In this document: positions 42,292 through 51,822 of the stretch, one piece after another
Position numbering within the stretch: position 1 is the stretch's first letter
Layout of the letters: each line of letters begins with the position of its first letter
Source of the DNA: Advenella kashmirensis WT001
GTDB taxonomy: Bacteria > Pseudomonadota > Gammaproteobacteria > Burkholderiales > Burkholderiaceae_B
Assembly (NCBI RefSeq): GCF_000219915.2
Contig: NC_017964.1
Coordinates: 2,976,001 to 3,040,000 of the forward strand
DNA length: 64,000 bases
Direction: 5' to 3'
Notes under the pieces: generated by a model
The model's input: only the letters and a program-made list of their open reading frames with translations
What the model was told of the DNA's origin: nothing
Databases searched by the model: none
Translations under genes and position numbers: made by a program

Positions 42292-43274
42292 GTGATAAAA
42301 CCAGGCAAGTCCATTTATACCGCCGCCATTGCTATGCTCATGGCAGGCGGTATGCAGTCCGCTCAGGCAATGTCCGAGGCAGCCAAGAACTTTCCTGACA
42401 AGCCAATCACAATCGTGATTGGCTATACGGCCGGCGGCTCAACCGACATTCCATTCCGTGTGCTGGCAGAAAACCTGACAGGTATTCTCAAGCAGCCGGT
42501 GATTGTCGAAAACAAACCGGGTGCCGGCGGCGTTTTGCCAGCCATGCAGCTGCATAACAAAAAGCCGGACGGCTACACCCTTGCCCAAACGCCAACACCG
42601 GTGTTTCGCCTGCCCTATATCAGCAAAATCGACTGGAACCCGGCCACCGACCTGACCTATGTCATCGGCCTGGCAGGTTATTCTTTCGGACTGGTCGTGC
42701 CGGCCGACTCGCCCATCAAGTCGATGAAAGAGTATATTGAGTACGCCCGACAAAACCCTGAAAAACTCACCTATGGTTCGCCGGGCATTATGACAACCCT
42801 GCATATCACCATGGAAGCCATAGCCCAGGACGCCGATATCAAACTGGTGCATGTTCCTACAAAGGCAATGCAGAATCGCTCAAAGCCATTATTGGCGGGT
42901 TTGTCATGTCAGTCGCAGATACCCCGGCATGGGCGCCTTATGTAGAAAACGGCAAGCTGCGCCTGTTGTCTACCTGGGGTGAAAAACGCAGCAAAAAATT
43001 TCCTGATGCGCCCACGCTCAAGGAGTCTGGTATTAACCGTGTCCAGCTTTCGCCTTTCGGACTGGCGGTTCCCAAGGACACCGATCCGGACATCGTGAAA
43101 AAGCTTCATGACGCACTCAAGCTGGCCATGGAAAAACCCAATTTTCGCGAAGCGCTGGAAAAATACGATATGGAACCGCTCTATATGAGCACCCAGCAAT
43201 ACACCGAATTTGCGAAAAAAACCACGGCAGACGAAGGCAAGGTGCTCGAATCCCTCGGCTTTAAGAAAAAGTAA
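42292..43274 (+). pseudogene. Bug/TctC-family periplasmic solute receptor, frameshifted
   Basis: This is 327 residues after adding one base. It starts at GTG 42292 with an AGGAG site and has a signal peptide ending near MQSAQAMS. The mature domain begins with FPDKPITIVIGYTAGGSTDI, the Bug hallmark, followed by VIVENKPGAGGVLPAMQL. The break near 42860 (GTTCCTACA needs GTTCCCTACA) restores HVPYKGNAESLKAIIGG. Bug proteins bind dicarboxylates, amino acids or aromatic acids with a carboxylate pincer. No TctA/TctB permease is nearby. As the last gene of a catabolic operon it may capture that operon's substrate (inference). Confidence 0.9.
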
Positions 43275-44710: not shown

Positions 44711-45669
44711 ATGAAAATAAAAGGGACATCTCTTCTTGCGTACACCGCGCTTGCTGCCCTTGCTCTACCCATGTCAGCTCAGGCGGCGTGGCCAGACAAA
44801 CCGATCAAGGTTATCGTTCCCTATACGCCTGGCGGCGCAACCGACACCGTCACGCGTGTCGTCATGCAAAAGCTGTCGGAAAAGCTCAAGCAGCCTATCG
44901 TTATTGAAAACAAACCTGGCGCCAACAGCACGATCGGAACCAGCCAGGCCGCGCGCTCCAAGCCGGACGGGTATACGTTTGTCACGGTACTGGCCGCCTA
45001 TTCGGCCAATCCGCATTTATATAAGCTGAACTATAGCAACGACGATTTCGTTCCGGTATCGCATATTGCCGACCTGCCCCTGTTCCTGTTTGTCAGCAAG
45101 CAGGTGCCTGCCAAGAACCTGAAAGAACTGGTGGAGTACGGCAAGAAAAATCATTTGACCTATGCATCCAGCGGCACCGGCTCGAGCGCCCACCTGACAG
45201 GCGCCCACTTTGCTGATGAAGCCAATCTTGAAATGACGCACGTCCCCTATAAGGCAGTGCCCCCATTCTTGCTGATTTGCTCAGTGGCAGGGTTTCCATG
45301 GTCTTTGATCCGATCCTGGTGCCTATGAGTTACGTCAAGGAAGACAAATTGAACGCGCTGGCCATTACGTCGGCCAAACGCTGGGAAGGTGAAGACAATA
45401 TCCCGACCATGCAAGAAGCGGGCTTCAAGGGCTTTGTGATGAACTCATGGACCTCGCTCATGGCGCCGAAAGGCACGCCGCAGGAAATCGTGGACCGCGT
45501 CTCGTCGGAACTGGCCGAAATCGTCAAAGACCCGGATGTGAAGGCCAAATTCAAGGCCGCCGGCTTTGTCCCCGTCGGAGGCTCTGCAGCAGAACTGAGC
45601 GAACTCATTAAACGCGATTCAGCGCTGTACGAAAAAATCATCAAGGAAAATAATATTACAGTGCAATAA
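44711..45669 (+). pseudogene. Bug/TctC-family periplasmic solute receptor, frameshifted
   Basis: This is 319 residues after adding one base. The signal peptide MKIKGTSLLAYTALAALALP ends at AQAA, then WPDKPIKVIVPYTPGGATDT and IVIENKPGANSTIGTSQAAR mark the family. The break near 45260 (AAGGCAGTGCC needs AAGGGCAGTGCC) restores HVPYKGSAPILADLLSGRVS. It is monocistronic between two terminators. The ligand is unknown and no permease gene is adjacent. Confidence 0.9.
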
Positions 45670-45736: not shown

Positions 45737-45830
45737 TTTAACAGACCATGAACAAACAGTGACATGGCGATGCGTTGGTGGCTGGCCGGAGTTGCCCCCT
45801 TTTCCTGATCAACCTAGGGTAAACCCCGGC

Positions 45831-45858
45831 TTGTTGTCTTGCAGCAGGCGACTATCAT
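45831..45858 (+). promoter_or_regulatory. candidate promoter of the glycine riboswitch transcript
   Basis: TTGTTG (45831-45836) and TATCAT (45853-45858) are 16 bases apart, placing the transcript start just before the aptamer at 45881. Match by eye only. Confidence 0.45.
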
Positions 45859-45880
45859 ATGCGTTGTCGACATACGTGTT

Positions 45881-46048
45881 TGCAGGAGAGTTCAGCCCTG
45901 CTGACGCCGACGGAGCAACCACCCCGGAAACTCTCAGGCAAAAGGACTGCAAATAACGCGACACTCTGGAGAGAGGCGCATGCGCCCACCGAAGGGGAAC
46001 CGGCTTCATGAACGCCGGTGAAACTCTCAGGTACCGTGACAGATGGGG
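45881..46048 (+). promoter_or_regulatory. tandem glycine riboswitch
   Basis: Two consecutive glycine aptamers are visible. The first (45881-45951) has P1 TGCAG/CTGCA, the GGAGAGTTC entry, GCCGACGGAGCAACC, and the hallmark GAAACTCTCAGGCAAAAGGAC. After a ten-base linker the second (about 45962-46048) has CTCTGGAGAGAGG, a GCGCATGCGC arm, CACCGAAGGGGAACCGGC with a GCCGGT partner, and GAAACTCTCAGGTACC with GACAGATGGGG. This matches the cooperative two-aptamer class. The 43 bases before the start codon hold a small GTGAT/ATCAC hairpin next to the CGGAG site and no T-run, so control is probably at translation. The gene controlled begins at 46092. Confidence 0.95.
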
Positions 46049-46091
46049 TATGCAGATCGTGTGATTTGCATCACCGCTATCGGAGACGTTT

Positions 46092-47338
46092 ATGTCACGT
46101 GTCGCCATCATCGGTGCCGGCATTACCGGCATCACCACAGCCTATACCCTGGCCAAGCTCGGCTATTCGGTCACTGTCCTGGACAAAAACCGGGACGCGC
46201 CATGGAAACTTCGTTCGCCAACGGCGGGCAGCTCTCGGCAAGCAACGCCGAAGTCTGGAACAGCACCGCCACCATCATGAAAGGGCTGCGCTGGATCGGC
46301 AAGCGCAACGCCCCCTTGCTGCTCAATCCTGCGTTCAGTTGGCACAAATACAGCTGGCTCGCGGCCTTCATTCGCAATATTCCCAATCACAAAGCCAATA
46401 CCATCGAAACCACCCGGCTGGCGATTGAAGCGCGCCGTCATTTGTACGCCATGGCAGAACAGGAGAACATCGATTTCGATCTGGAGCGCAGGGGCATACT
46501 GCACATCTATTATGACAAAGACAGTTTTGACAAAGCCGTCAAAACCAATGCACTGCTGCAGGCCGGCGGCCTGGAACGTTTCGCGGTCACGCGTGATGAA
46601 GCCCGAACCATTGAACCGACACTGACCGGGGATTTCTTCGCGGGCTTGTATACCCCATCGGACGCCACTGGCGACATTCACAAGTTCACCAATGGTTTGG
46701 CCGCCGCATGCCGCCGGCTGGGCGTGCAATTTGTCATGGACACCTCGGTCACTCGCATTGCCAGCGATCGGCACCATCACCAGATTTTCCATCAGCGCTA
46801 TGACAATGGAGATTCCGCCTACCTTGAAGCCGATAATATTGTTGTCTGCGCCGGCACGGGCAGCCGGGCCATCGCCCGCATGCTGGGCGATACCATGAAT
46901 GTCTATCCGGTCAAAGGCTATTCAATTAGTGTCCATCTGGACGATGCGACCAGCCTGGCCGCCACGCCCCGGGTCAGCCTGCTGGATGAAGACGCCAAAA
47001 TCGTGACCAGCTTTCTGGGTGATCGCTTCCGGGTGGCGGGTACGGCCGAATTCAATGGCTTTAACAAGGACATTCGCGCAGACCGGGTACAGCCGCTGAT
47101 TGACTGGACCCGCCGTCTGTTTCCCGAGATATCCACCCGGCGCGTGGTGCCATGGTGCGGCCTGCGCCCGATGATGCCCGATATGATGCCGCGCGTATGC
47201 CGTGGCCGCAAACCCGGCGTATTCTACAACACCGGCCACGGCCACCTGGGATGGACCTTGTCTGCCATCACCGCCCAAATGCTGGGCGAATTGGTGGAAG
47301 CATCGAGGCAAAATTCCACGTTGCAGCCGGCGTATTGA
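46092..47338 (+). pseudogene. dadA: D-amino-acid dehydrogenase / glycine-oxidising FAD enzyme (DadA-like), frameshifted
   Basis: This is a 415-residue FAD-dependent oxidoreductase of the DadA/DAO type after repair. The Rossmann motif VAIIGAGITGITTAYTLAKL starts at residue 4, then VTVLDKN. The second frame carries ETSFANGGQLSASNAEVW, HIYYDKDSFDK, GDIHKFTNGLAAACRRLG, YPVKGYSISV and a C-terminal GHGHLGWTLS. The frame breaks near 46199 (GACGCGCCATGG needs GACGCGGCCATGG), giving RDAAMETSFANGG. DadA enzymes deaminate D-amino acids to 2-oxoacids and pass electrons to the respiratory chain. Control by a glycine riboswitch suggests glycine, or a D-amino acid in glycine metabolism, is the substrate (inference). 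Confidence 0.9.
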
Positions 47339-47391: not shown

Positions 47392-48113
<722 letters not shown>

Positions 48114-48117
<4 letters not shown>

Positions 48118-48791
48118 ACTTCACTCTTTTTCTGGACGAGTTTGACAATTATTGTGGCGGCCGAGCAAATGACCCAGTAGGTCAGGCCCGCAAACAACAG
48201 CATTTGAATCAGCGTGCCATCACGTTCCCCCACGCTTTTGGCCCGGCTGAAGAAATCACCCAGCGCGATAACATAAACCAGTGACGTGTCCTGGAAGATC
48301 ACGATGCATTGCGTCAGGGTAATCGGCAACATCTTGCGCAGGGCCTGTGGCAGGATGATCAGGCGCATGGATTGCGCCCAGTTCATGCCCAGCGCCTTGG
48401 CTGCATTGAACTGCCCCGCCGGCAGGCTCTGAATGCCGGCACGAATAATTTCACAGAAAAAAGCCGCCTCCAACAGGGAGAAAGCCACCATCGCGGAGAT
48501 CAGGCGAATGTCTACACTGGGAGAAATGTTCAATACCGATTTGAGCACCTGGGGCACAATCAGAAAGAACCAAAGCAGTAGCATCACAAGTGGAATAGAA
48601 CGAAACAGCGAAACGTACGTCTTTGCCAGCCAGTTCAGAATCGGCACCCTGACCACGCTCATTGCCGCAAGCACCACTCCCAGGCCCAGACCCGCCACAA
48701 TTGCGACAGCCGTCACCTGGAGTGTGAGCCACATGCCAGTCATCAGCAAGCCACGAGACTGCACGATCATGTTCCAGTCAATATCAAACAT
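48114..48791 (-). CDS. amino-acid ABC transporter permease (second GltK-like)
   Basis: This 225-residue permease has the EAA loop FFCEIIRAGIQSLPAGQFNA followed by AKALGMNWAQSMRLIILPQA near residues 115-155, and about five helices. The start is one base away from the upstream permease stop and the end overlaps the ATPase start, so the operon is tightly coupled. Confidence 0.9.
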
Positions 48792-48792
48792 A

Positions 48793-49530
48793 TCAGTCTC
48801 CCAGTAAGCCAGGAATATGACTTCGGTTTTTGATGAAACCCATCAGCCGAATAATCACGAAATTGATCAGCATATACGCCAGCGTGACGCAAATGAACGA
48901 CTCATACGGCTGCGCCGTGTAGTCCACCAGTTGCCGGGCCTGGCCGGACAGTTCCAGCAAGCCGATGGTAGATGCGACCGCCGAGTTTTTTGAGATGATG
49001 AGAAACTCCGAGGTTAGCGGCGGGATAATGGTGCGATAGGTAACGGGCATAAGGATATAGCGGTAGGTCTGAAATAATGTAAAACCCAGCGCCAGCCCGG
49101 CGCCTTTCTGACCCCGCGGCAATCCCTGTATGCCGGCGCGTATCTGCTCGCAAATACGTGAGCCCGTGTATACGCCAAGCGACAACACCGAGACTACAAA
49201 GAACTGCACCGACGGATCCAGATTTTTGATCCAGTCCCCGGCAGATACCGGCAACATTTCAGGCACGACAAAATACCAGATGAAAAACTGCACGATCAGC
49301 GGTACGTTCCGGAACACCGACACATAGGCCGTCCCGATAAACGCCAGCGACTTTTTGGGTAGCGTGCGCATGACGCCGAATACAGAGCCCAGGATCAGCG
49401 CCAGTACCCAGGCAAACACCGTCAGAAGAACAGTATTGACCAGACCAATGCCCAGCCATCCCAGATAGGTTGAGTTTTCACCAGTGGCTACCTGCTCAAG
49501 CAGAAAGCCCCAGTTCCATTTGTAATCCAT
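48793..49530 (-). CDS. amino-acid ABC transporter permease (second GltJ-like)
   Basis: This 245-residue permease begins MDYKWNWGFLLEQVATGENS. GLVNTVLLTVFAWVLALILG forms the first helix, and the loop GSRICEQIRAGIQGLPRGQK followed by GAGLALGFTLFQTYRYILMP is the EAA motif. The ATG at 49530 is preferred to a GTG four codons upstream. It follows the binding-protein gene after about 66 bases. Confidence 0.9.
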   Translation of the reverse strand: MDYKWNWGFLLEQVATGENSTYLGWLGIGLVNTVLLTVFAWVLALILGSVFGVMRTLPKKSLAFIGTAYVSVFRNVPLIVQFFIWYFVVPEMLPVSAGDWIKNLDPSVQFFVVSVLSLGVYTGSRICEQIRAGIQGLPRGQKGAGLALGFTLFQTYRYILMPVTYRTIIPPLTSEFLIISKNSAVASTIGLLELSGQARQLVDYTAQPYESFICVTLAYMLINFVIIRLMGFIKNRSHIPGLLGD

Positions 49531-49596
49531 TGATAACACCACTGTAGAACGCGGTCATGCCGCGTGATTCATTGCACAAAAAAAGGCCCGTCTGCT

Positions 49597-50518
49597 TCAG
49601 GACGCAGGCTTATCGCTGGGCTGGGCGAACAGCTTTTTCATTCCCTCGGACATCTCAAATTCCAGATTGATGTTCTTGGGAGGAATCGGTGTTTCAAACC
49701 ATTTGTGATAAATCTGCGCCGCCTGACCGGATGTCTCGGCTTTGGCAATAACCTCATCCAGCACCTTCTTTATTCCTGCATCGTCCTTGCGTACCATGCA
49801 GCCATAGGATTCATAGGATTGCGGTGTACCGGTAATTACGTAATCCTGCGGATTGGCGATTTTCGCCGCTCGCCTGCAAGCAGCGCATCATCCATCATCA
49901 TGCTTTGGCGCGCCCGGTTGACAGTGTCAGGAAAGATTCGCTGTGATCCTTGGCGCTGATAATGCGCATGCCCAGTTTCTTTTCTACATTCAGTTTGCGC
50001 AACAGAATCTCCGACGTTGTGCCCGCCCCCACCACTACGGTCTGGTCTTTCAGATCAGCAAAGTCCTTGATACCGGAATCCTTCTTGGCCAGCAATCGGG
50101 TACCAACCTGGAAAATGCTGTTCGAAAAGGTGACCTGCTTGCCGCGTGATTCATTGTTGGTCGTGGTAGTGCATTCAAAATCGATCGTGCCATTTTGCAG
50201 CAGCGAAATACGATTCTGCGAGGTGATCGGAATCATTCGTACTTTAAGATCAGGATTGGCGGTCACGGCTTTGATTTTGTCCAGAATCAGCTGGGTAAAA
50301 TCCATTGAATAACCGACAGGCTTCTGGTTCGAATCGTAATAGGAAAACGGAATGGAGGCTTCGCGATAACCAACCACGACAACGCCATCGTCCTTGATTT
50401 TCTTCAGTGTCCCGTCCAATGGTTCCTGCGCGCCCGCCACGCTCACCAATGACCCTGATAGAATGCCCGCAACGGCAATATTGATGACTGCTTTAACCTG
50501 CTTGACCAACGTGCTCAT
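49597..50518 (-). pseudogene. glutamate/aspartate-type substrate-binding protein (second GltI-like), two frameshifts
   Basis: This is 307 residues after adding two bases. A signal peptide ends at VAGAQ near residue 31. The mature chain shows GVVVVGYREASIPFSYYDSN, GTIDFECTTTTNNESRGKQV and a C-terminal KWFETPIPPKNINLEFEMSE, all GltI marks. Break one is near 49908 (AAAGCATGATG needs one more base) and break two is near 49866 (GAGCGGCGAAAA needs GAGCGGGCGAAAA), restoring DDALLAGERAKIANPQDYVI. The ATG at 50518 has an AAGGAA site. It lies between the beta-propeller gene and the permeases. Confidence 0.9.
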
Positions 50519-50544: not shown

Positions 50545-51822
50545 TTAACCTACGATATGGGATACATCAATGACATACAGCTGCCGCTCGGATTCGTGTA
50601 CCGAATCGATGCACACCTGCCGGCCATCACGGCGCCAGCGCGGATGCAGGTCGCATCGGTTGACTTTCTTCAATACAGGATCCGTATAAAAACTGCCCAG
50701 TTTATGACAAACGCCATTATCCATGTCGAACAGGATCAGCAGGCGTTCATTGGTTTCCGAATCGGGATAAGTGTCACTCAGCAGCCAGCGCTTGTTGACC
50801 GGTGAATAAGTCATATGGCCATTCTCGGTCAGAATATCCCTGCCCACGATTTGCACGGTTGCCGCATCCTCATCCCGGTAAAGATGGTAATGGATCTGCC
50901 CCTGGTGCGGGCTCCAGACAATGATCCGCTGATCATCACACCATAAAGGATGTGATATCTGGTACTCGGATTTTTCATAATCGAACGTGCCCACCGCATT
51001 GGGGTCGAAATCTGCAGCCAGTTGCGGCAATGGGTGATCGGAGTCTTCCAGCAGGCGCAGATTGGAACCATCCGGATCCATGGTAATGAGTCGATGCAGA
51101 AAGCAGGTCTCATCTTCTACGCGTTCGGTCCAGCGATGCAGGAACAGCACACGGCTGGAAGACGGATTGATTTCCACATGAGAGATCCAGTGAATGGCTT
51201 TCTCCATGGACTGAACCGGATGAAACTGGCTCAACTGCAATAGGCTGACGACCAGTCTGTATGCGCCCGTATCCAGATCCAGATGGTAAATGCCATCATC
51301 GGCAGGCGCCATGGGGACAGCCGGAGGGTTGTGTTCCCAGTAGCCGATGGTTTCGTGCGTAATAAATAGACGGCTGTAATTGATACCCAGCGCATAGCGA
51401 CTGTTGGGTGCGGCAACGGTAATGGGTACGGGAAAATGCGTTTTTTCTCCCGTATCAACATTGCAGACGGTCGATTGAAACCCGGGATAAGGGCCGATGA
51501 CGGTGGTCGCTCGGGTATTGTAGATGCAATAACTGCCATCGCGCCCGTCCAGCCATTGCAACTGGCATCCCATTTGCCAGTTCCAGGTCGTGGTCGTGTC
51601 GATCGAGACGTATTTTTCATTGTCGGCAAGATCGAAATAACCCACCTCGGCGCTCAGGTCTGCCCCCAATTGGGCGGTCATGAAGGGCACGCGGTTGGCC
51701 AGCAGCCGGGTGCCCGTCTTATCCCAGTTCGATTTGTTGTAGTAGCCAAAGAAATGATGCATGCCGTCATGACCGACGCGTCGGCATGGCGCAATACTGG
51801 ATATATATTTTGTGTGGTCCAT
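50545..51822 (-). CDS. beta-propeller protein of unknown function (PD40/oligogalacturonate-lyase-like repeats)
   Basis: This 425-residue protein has no signal peptide, so it is probably cytoplasmic. Repeated short strands ending in W/F-S-x-D-G-x-x-like turns suggest a six- or seven-bladed propeller. Distinct segments are HHFFGYYNKSNWDKTGTRLL at the start, SHPLWCDDQRIIVWSPHQGQ, NGHMTYSPVNKRWLLSDTYP and a final DLHPRWRRDGRQVCIDSVHE. The last two recall the oligogalacturonate lyase and TolB/PD40 style, but I cannot assign an activity. It starts the operon: the binding-protein gene begins 26 bases after its stop, and a LysR gene is divergent. A catalytic or sensing role tied to the imported compound is possible (inference). 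Confidence 0.7.
   Translation of the reverse strand: MDHTKYISSIAPCRRVGHDGMHHFFGYYNKSNWDKTGTRLLANRVPFMTAQLGADLSAEVGYFDLADNEKYVSIDTTTTWNWQMGCQLQWLDGRDGSYCIYNTRATTVIGPYPGFQSTVCNVDTGEKTHFPVPITVAAPNSRYALGINYSRLFITHETIGYWEHNPPAVPMAPADDGIYHLDLDTGAYRLVVSLLQLSQFHPVQSMEKAIHWISHVEINPSSSRVLFLHRWTERVEDETCFLHRLITMDPDGSNLRLLEDSDHPLPQLAADFDPNAVGTFDYEKSEYQISHPLWCDDQRIIVWSPHQGQIHYHLYRDEDAATVQIVGRDILTENGHMTYSPVNKRWLLSDTYPDSETNERLLILFDMDNGVCHKLGSFYTDPVLKKVNRCDLHPRWRRDGRQVCIDSVHESERQLYVIDVSHIVG

Follow-up and report, generated by a model that had tools for sequence, protein, structure and literature searches.

A tandem glycine riboswitch ahead of a DadA-like flavoenzyme gene in Advenella kashmirensis, a pairing that recurs in many proteobacteria

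The window analysed here is a stretch of 64,000 nucleotides from Advenella kashmirensis WT001 (contig NC_017964.1, positions 2,976,001 to 3,040,000; the coordinates below count from its first base). On its forward strand two glycine riboswitch aptamers precede a DadA-like gene. The initial annotation had proposed such a tandem switch and named an RF00504 covariance search as the check. This search gave aptamer 1 at 45873-45959 (+), with 66.1 bits and an E value of 1.7e-11 over the window, and aptamer 2 at 45956-46052 (+), with 53.5 bits in a whole-genome search, both above the gathering score of 32. The window scans list aptamer 1 only, leaving out a lower-scoring overlapping match from the same clan. 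The gene starts with the ATG at 46092, 39 nt beyond the end of the aptamer 2 match, and the CGGAG at 46081-46085 (+), six bases before this ATG, is its likely ribosome-binding site. With two aptamers ahead of one gene, the tandem switch is real, far beyond chance. Aptamer 1 is the higher scoring of the two in the window, as opposed to genome G009, where the order is reversed (63.7 bits for aptamer 2 vs 56.5 for aptamer 1); in a translational ON-type glycine riboswitch, aptamer 1 is the better conserved one, according to the available part of PMC13104608.

Upstream of the switch lies a split TctC-type receptor gene in two frames (44711-45328 and 45277-45669), which an ORF pair at 42292-42945 and 42906-43274 resembles by eye. 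Behind the dadA-like gene runs a convergent amino-acid-type ABC transporter (47392-50518, -), comprising an ATPase, two permeases and a family 3 binding protein, the ORF for the latter matching positions 1-98 of the 132 in the Pfam model; beyond it is a 425-aa ORF (50545-51822, -) with no Pfam match at E 0.001.

The dadA-like gene itself is interrupted. Its first 36 codons occupy 46092-46199 (+), and the main piece of 378 codons plus stop occupies 46202-47338 (+) in another frame, which places the break near 46200 and confirms what the initial annotation implied in speaking of a "repaired enzyme". The translation of the first piece agrees with the start of P0003, an intact 415-aa protein from the protein database that is 99% identical to the gene product. 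The main piece matches the Pfam DAO family. With NF009074 (PRK12409, "D-amino acid dehydrogenase"), whose curated cut-off is 494, it reaches 624.8 bits and P0003 reaches 688.2; the proposed DadA-like FAD enzyme gene is thus borne out. Canonical DadA, represented by NF001933 (PRK00711), has the same fold family, but the main piece and P0003 reach only 281.2 and 334.9 bits against a cut-off of 383, P0003 is 32% identical to E. coli DadA, and the canonical enzymes fall in a separate clade. By these scores the gene belongs to the PRK12409 family and is not a canonical dadA.

The interrupted frame raises the question of whether the WT001 locus is a relic, a switch standing ahead of a dead gene, which would be compatible with any reading of the family as a whole. 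Apart from the break, this is favoured by the 578 genes with potential frameshifts in the WT001 genome, for which the available text of PMC3669393 judges sequencing errors very unlikely. However, broken frames also affect gcvT (two pieces) and gcvP (three) in this assembly, and an intact protein 99% identical to the product exists; dN/dS of the main piece is 0.046 against Advenella incenata (L069) and 0.050 against Advenella sp. S44 (L062), and 214 and 206, respectively, of 219 leader bases are unchanged. We regard a relic as rather unlikely.

To see how general the arrangement is, counts were made in genomes at several taxonomic depths. In the window's family 61 genomes were covered; NF009074 matches above the cut-off occur in 20, and in all 20 a glycine aptamer lies at most 350 nt upstream of the gene, with a second one in 19. 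An order-level draw of 300 genomes contained 12 with NF009074, of which 11 (the window's genome, G003 and nine of ten others) have the switch upstream. The corresponding figures for a phylum-level draw of 398 genomes are 24 of 25, made up of all 17 newly fetched loci, six from the order draw and the window's genome; the two draws share eight genomes, and G263 is the sole exception in both. Finally, among the named loci, which are the best 80 of at least 587 matches, 79 show an upstream aptamer when searched with a covariance model made for this analysis, and the same 79 carry a pair of CTCTCAGG-type motifs within 420 nt. Because aptamers of related loci went into the training of this model, and no fewer than four named loci appear to overlap genomes of the family or order draw, the Rfam counts serve as the independent check. 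The named genera that carry the pairing are alpha-, beta- and gammaproteobacteria. No significant aptamer was found at the metagenome-bin locus L085 or at G263 (L045, L047) with search filters off, the best match being 10.5 bits at E 0.3. The pairing of switch and dadA-like gene is therefore a conserved arrangement and no local oddity, and its recurrence in many proteobacteria points to glycine breakdown as a possible true function of the enzyme.

The initial annotation had contrasted this target with the more usual gcv operon or transporter. This contrast is not quite right, as the same genome has one further RF00504 pair, about 110 nt upstream of a gcvT match, and the pairing with dadA is a conserved arrangement of its own. 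Across the 61 family genomes the other aptamer targets are gcvT, at 35 of 42 gcvT places, and genes of the transporter type. Behind the aptamers, the first ORF to reach 150 aa is Gly_transporter in G022 and G040, AA_permease in G044 and G046, and Na_Ala_symp in G001; in G044, G046 and G001 a gap of about 390-430 nt separates it from the aptamers. The PF03458 "Gly_transporter" genes directly behind a switch lie at L032:6064-6681 (-) in G040, which belongs to the window's genus, and at L030:7681-8310 (+) in G022. In the WT001 genome itself, the second tandem switch and the gcvT and gcvP pieces that follow it lie in C1:3529000-3541000 (L031).

The region between aptamer 2 and the gene was examined for signs of how the switch might act. 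Between 45650 and 46300 a single terminator-like site was found, which precedes the aptamers (45777-45796); the stretch from the aptamers to the gene has none, as the initial annotation had stated; transcription attenuation was accordingly rejected for the window. The RNA 46030-46104 has a predicted minimum free energy of -28.9 kcal/mol (z -3.0; 2 of 200 shuffles were as good). In the predicted glycine-free fold (46035-46099, +), a hairpin pairs 46042-46058 with 46063-46081, and 46035-46041 pair with 46093-46099, a segment that takes in the second and third start-codon bases. The 3' strand of the P1 helix of aptamer 2, at about 46040-46047 as read from the match end, is included in the arm, so P1 and the predicted fold would be mutually exclusive. 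In 13 aligned leaders (the window, L062 and 11 family genomes), eight of the nine pairs of the inner hairpin show pair-keeping changes on both sides, with two broken cells in total.

Similar pairing is predicted widely in the leaders of the NF009074 genes (group A), for which the counts are descriptive, the leaders being related. Of 97 distinct leaders, 87 have at least five of the nine bases beginning at the P1 strand paired with downstream sequence, compared with 63% in shuffles, and the mean energy is -27.2 kcal/mol vs -21.9 in the shuffles. In 29 of the 97 (6.3 expected), TCTGG, the sequence found in the 5' P1 strand, is present no more than 30 nt from the start. In the predicted folds of 63 leaders, three or more P1-strand bases pair with the 22 nt immediately upstream of the start; the other 34, a third of the set, do not fit a simple covering of the start. 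Nor is pairing with the start codon a general rule, since ATGTC starts occur in only 27 of the 97 leaders (32 of 319 mechanical ATG starts nearby have them). Runs of four or more T are found in just eight, which makes transcription attenuation doubtful for group A as a whole.

These features resemble the gcvT switch of Neisseria gonorrhoeae, for which the available part of PMC13104608 proposes, from mutants, translational ON control with pairing of the initiation region and aptamer 2. Both have two aptamers, no terminator before the gene and, by prediction here, pairing of the start region with aptamer 2 sequence. They differ in the target, which in the window is a flavoenzyme gene. In the absence of glycine the 3' strand of P1 in aptamer 2 and the bases just before it would enter the downstream hairpin, and in the window the same strand region would also pair onto the start codon, blocking ribosomes from starting. 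When glycine binds, the aptamers would fold, P1 would reclaim its strand and the start region would be freed. The translational control suggested by the initial annotation is thus supported as far as the predicted fold, which reaches the start region, and the covarying hairpin go; the translational step itself we infer.

The switch is not confined to the NF009074 family. Among the next 80 DadA-like matches in the 61 family genomes, six have an aptamer upstream and 74 do not. The six genes with a switch but below the cut-off (G050, G034, G011, G012, G051 and G043) appear to be of the PRK00711 kind, five of the six having been scanned and scoring 492-507 bits against this model (cut-off 383). 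A tree of 73 proteins puts them in a single clade (100/97) next to relatives without the switch and distinct from the NF009074 clade (100/100), and the switch labels need two changes; the tree carries a long-branch warning and an unsettled bootstrap, and G263 is labelled group A (NF009074) in it though it has no switch. Switch control may therefore have been gained twice, or it may be older and since lost. Two leaders of the PRK00711-type genes (group B; L024 and L025) have a hairpin with a T run, unlike most group A leaders, so group B may be under transcriptional control. The residues H138 and N322 are common to both switch-controlled groups, which does not count as evidence: controls were similar, with two positions for the reverse pattern and none or one in each of five other clades.

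The genomic setting was considered in relation to the glycine cleavage system. Within the family, the switch-dadA pairing is present in 11 of 14 genomes without gcvP vs 13 of 42 with it (Fisher p 0.004), a count that leaves out three genomes below 1 Mb and two less than 90% complete; with all 61 genomes the figures are 13 of 19 vs 13 of 42 (p 0.011), and with one genome per genus 8 of 11 vs 11 of 29 (p 0.08). These p values are rough because the genomes are related. The order draw of 300 genomes had no tendency for NF009074 to go with a lack of gcvP, which was present in 10 of 12 NF009074 genomes vs 214 of 288 others. Replacement of the gcv system by dadA hence holds within the family and fails across the order. 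Malate synthase G, which could use glyoxylate, was found in 50 of the 61 family genomes and in 12 of the 14 lacking gcvP, two of these 12 being partial matches below the cut-off. As for neighbours, gcvP, the switch and dadA are consecutive and co-directional in G271, dadA lies directly behind an AA_permease gene in G263, and several Bradyrhizobium dadA loci have a peptide ABC transporter and M20 and M81 peptidases nearby. A conserved operon partner was sought and rejected: neighbour clusters covered at most 15 of the 80 named loci (the best 80 of at least 587 matches) and several consisted of antisense or spurious ORFs, in surveys that were rough, one using mechanical ORFs and dadA being unplaced in 18 of the 80 loci.

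Can the structure of the enzyme tell us its substrate? The predicted model (pLDDT 88.2) and the sequence profile both match glycine oxidases best, the nearest solved structures being ThiO and its relatives (4ysh, 7cyx, 1ryi, CmiS2). Arg359 of the studied enzyme aligns with the functional Arg302 of B. subtilis ThiO. The two differ, on an alignment read by eye, at ThiO Tyr246 (Lys303 here) and Met261 (Ala319 here), and the ThiO model TIGR02352 gives only 115.4 bits for the main piece and 148.2 for P0003, below its cut-off of 250.8. E. coli DadA, run as a control, also matches glycine oxidase best, so this resemblance leaves the substrate undecided, and the structure was rejected as proof of glycine specificity.

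Taken together, the aptamers, the gene family, the conserved switch-gene pairing and the covarying hairpin lead us to consider it probable that a tandem ON-type glycine riboswitch governs translation of a PRK12409-family FAD enzyme, one most likely to oxidise glycine. The enzyme would convert glycine to glyoxylate and ammonia, removing an excess of glycine beside the glycine cleavage system or, in some relatives, in its place. That glycine might be the substrate was suggested in the initial annotation, and the comparative evidence leans that way: the switch recurs on members of the family, and the family-level gcvP pattern agrees, from which we infer the substrate. Against this reading, sequence and structure fail to separate the PRK12409 enzyme from DadA, two members (G263 and L085) have no switch, the peptide-transport neighbours in Bradyrhizobium fit other substrates as well, NF009074 goes with gcvP at the order level, and the family-level association weakens to p 0.08 at one genome per genus.

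The main competing account of the substrate takes the enzyme for a genuine D-amino acid dehydrogenase, acting for example on D-alanine or D-serine, with glycine serving only as a stand-in signal, linked to the substrate for instance by common uptake routes or by an upset of cell-wall D-alanine that glycine causes. The NCBIfam name of NF009074 agrees with this, as a name and not as a test, and the residues aligned with the catalytic region are identical to those of E. coli DadA. The AA_permease family, a member of which precedes the gene in G263, includes carriers of D-alanine, D-serine and glycine. The glycine riboswitch class, however, is specific for glycine, and a sensor of this class stands before nearly every PRK12409 member, whereas most of the next-best DadA-like matches have no aptamer; we consider this account unlikely. 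The substrate might instead be a derivative of glycine, such as sarcosine, iminodiacetate or some other N-substituted form, or an amino acid that comes from peptides and yields glycine when broken down. This would suit the sarcosine and iminodiacetate oxidases among the nearest folds and the transporter and peptidases near some Bradyrhizobium genes, but induction by glycine would be odd logic were glycine the product and no such neighbours recur across the loci overall in the rough surveys, making this quite improbable.

If the enzyme does oxidise glycine, its family is misleadingly named. NF009074 matches the gene above its cut-off, but its name does not mention glycine, and a glycine-recognising regulator ahead of nearly every checked member of a family named for D-amino acids suggests another substrate, giving a definite guess for the family. 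Tentatively, and as a possibility that we rate somewhat below even, PRK12409 may be a misnamed, electron-transport-linked glycine dehydrogenase, providing a widespread second route of glycine breakdown beside glycine cleavage or replacing it in some lineages, with switch control having reached DadA-like enzymes in two separate clades. It could possibly be the gene of EC 1.4.2.1, an old activity termed "glycine dehydrogenase (cytochrome)". We know of no gene for this activity, and a literature search for one found none. Were glycine the substrate, many database names would be wrong, many bacteria would have an overlooked glycine sink, and it would be easier to explain how some relatives manage without the glycine cleavage system. 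Glycine riboswitches are a known class, and the dadA-like target is provisionally new: the literature as far as it was accessible contained no description of dadA under a glycine riboswitch, which may be listed in Additional file 5 of PMC3766115 (riboswitch-controlled genes), in PMC7161355 or in PMC5066625.

Other RNA elements were also seen near dadA loci, with an nhaA-I RNA match at L036:145-208 (-) and a C4 antisense RNA match at L035:1103-1195 (-).
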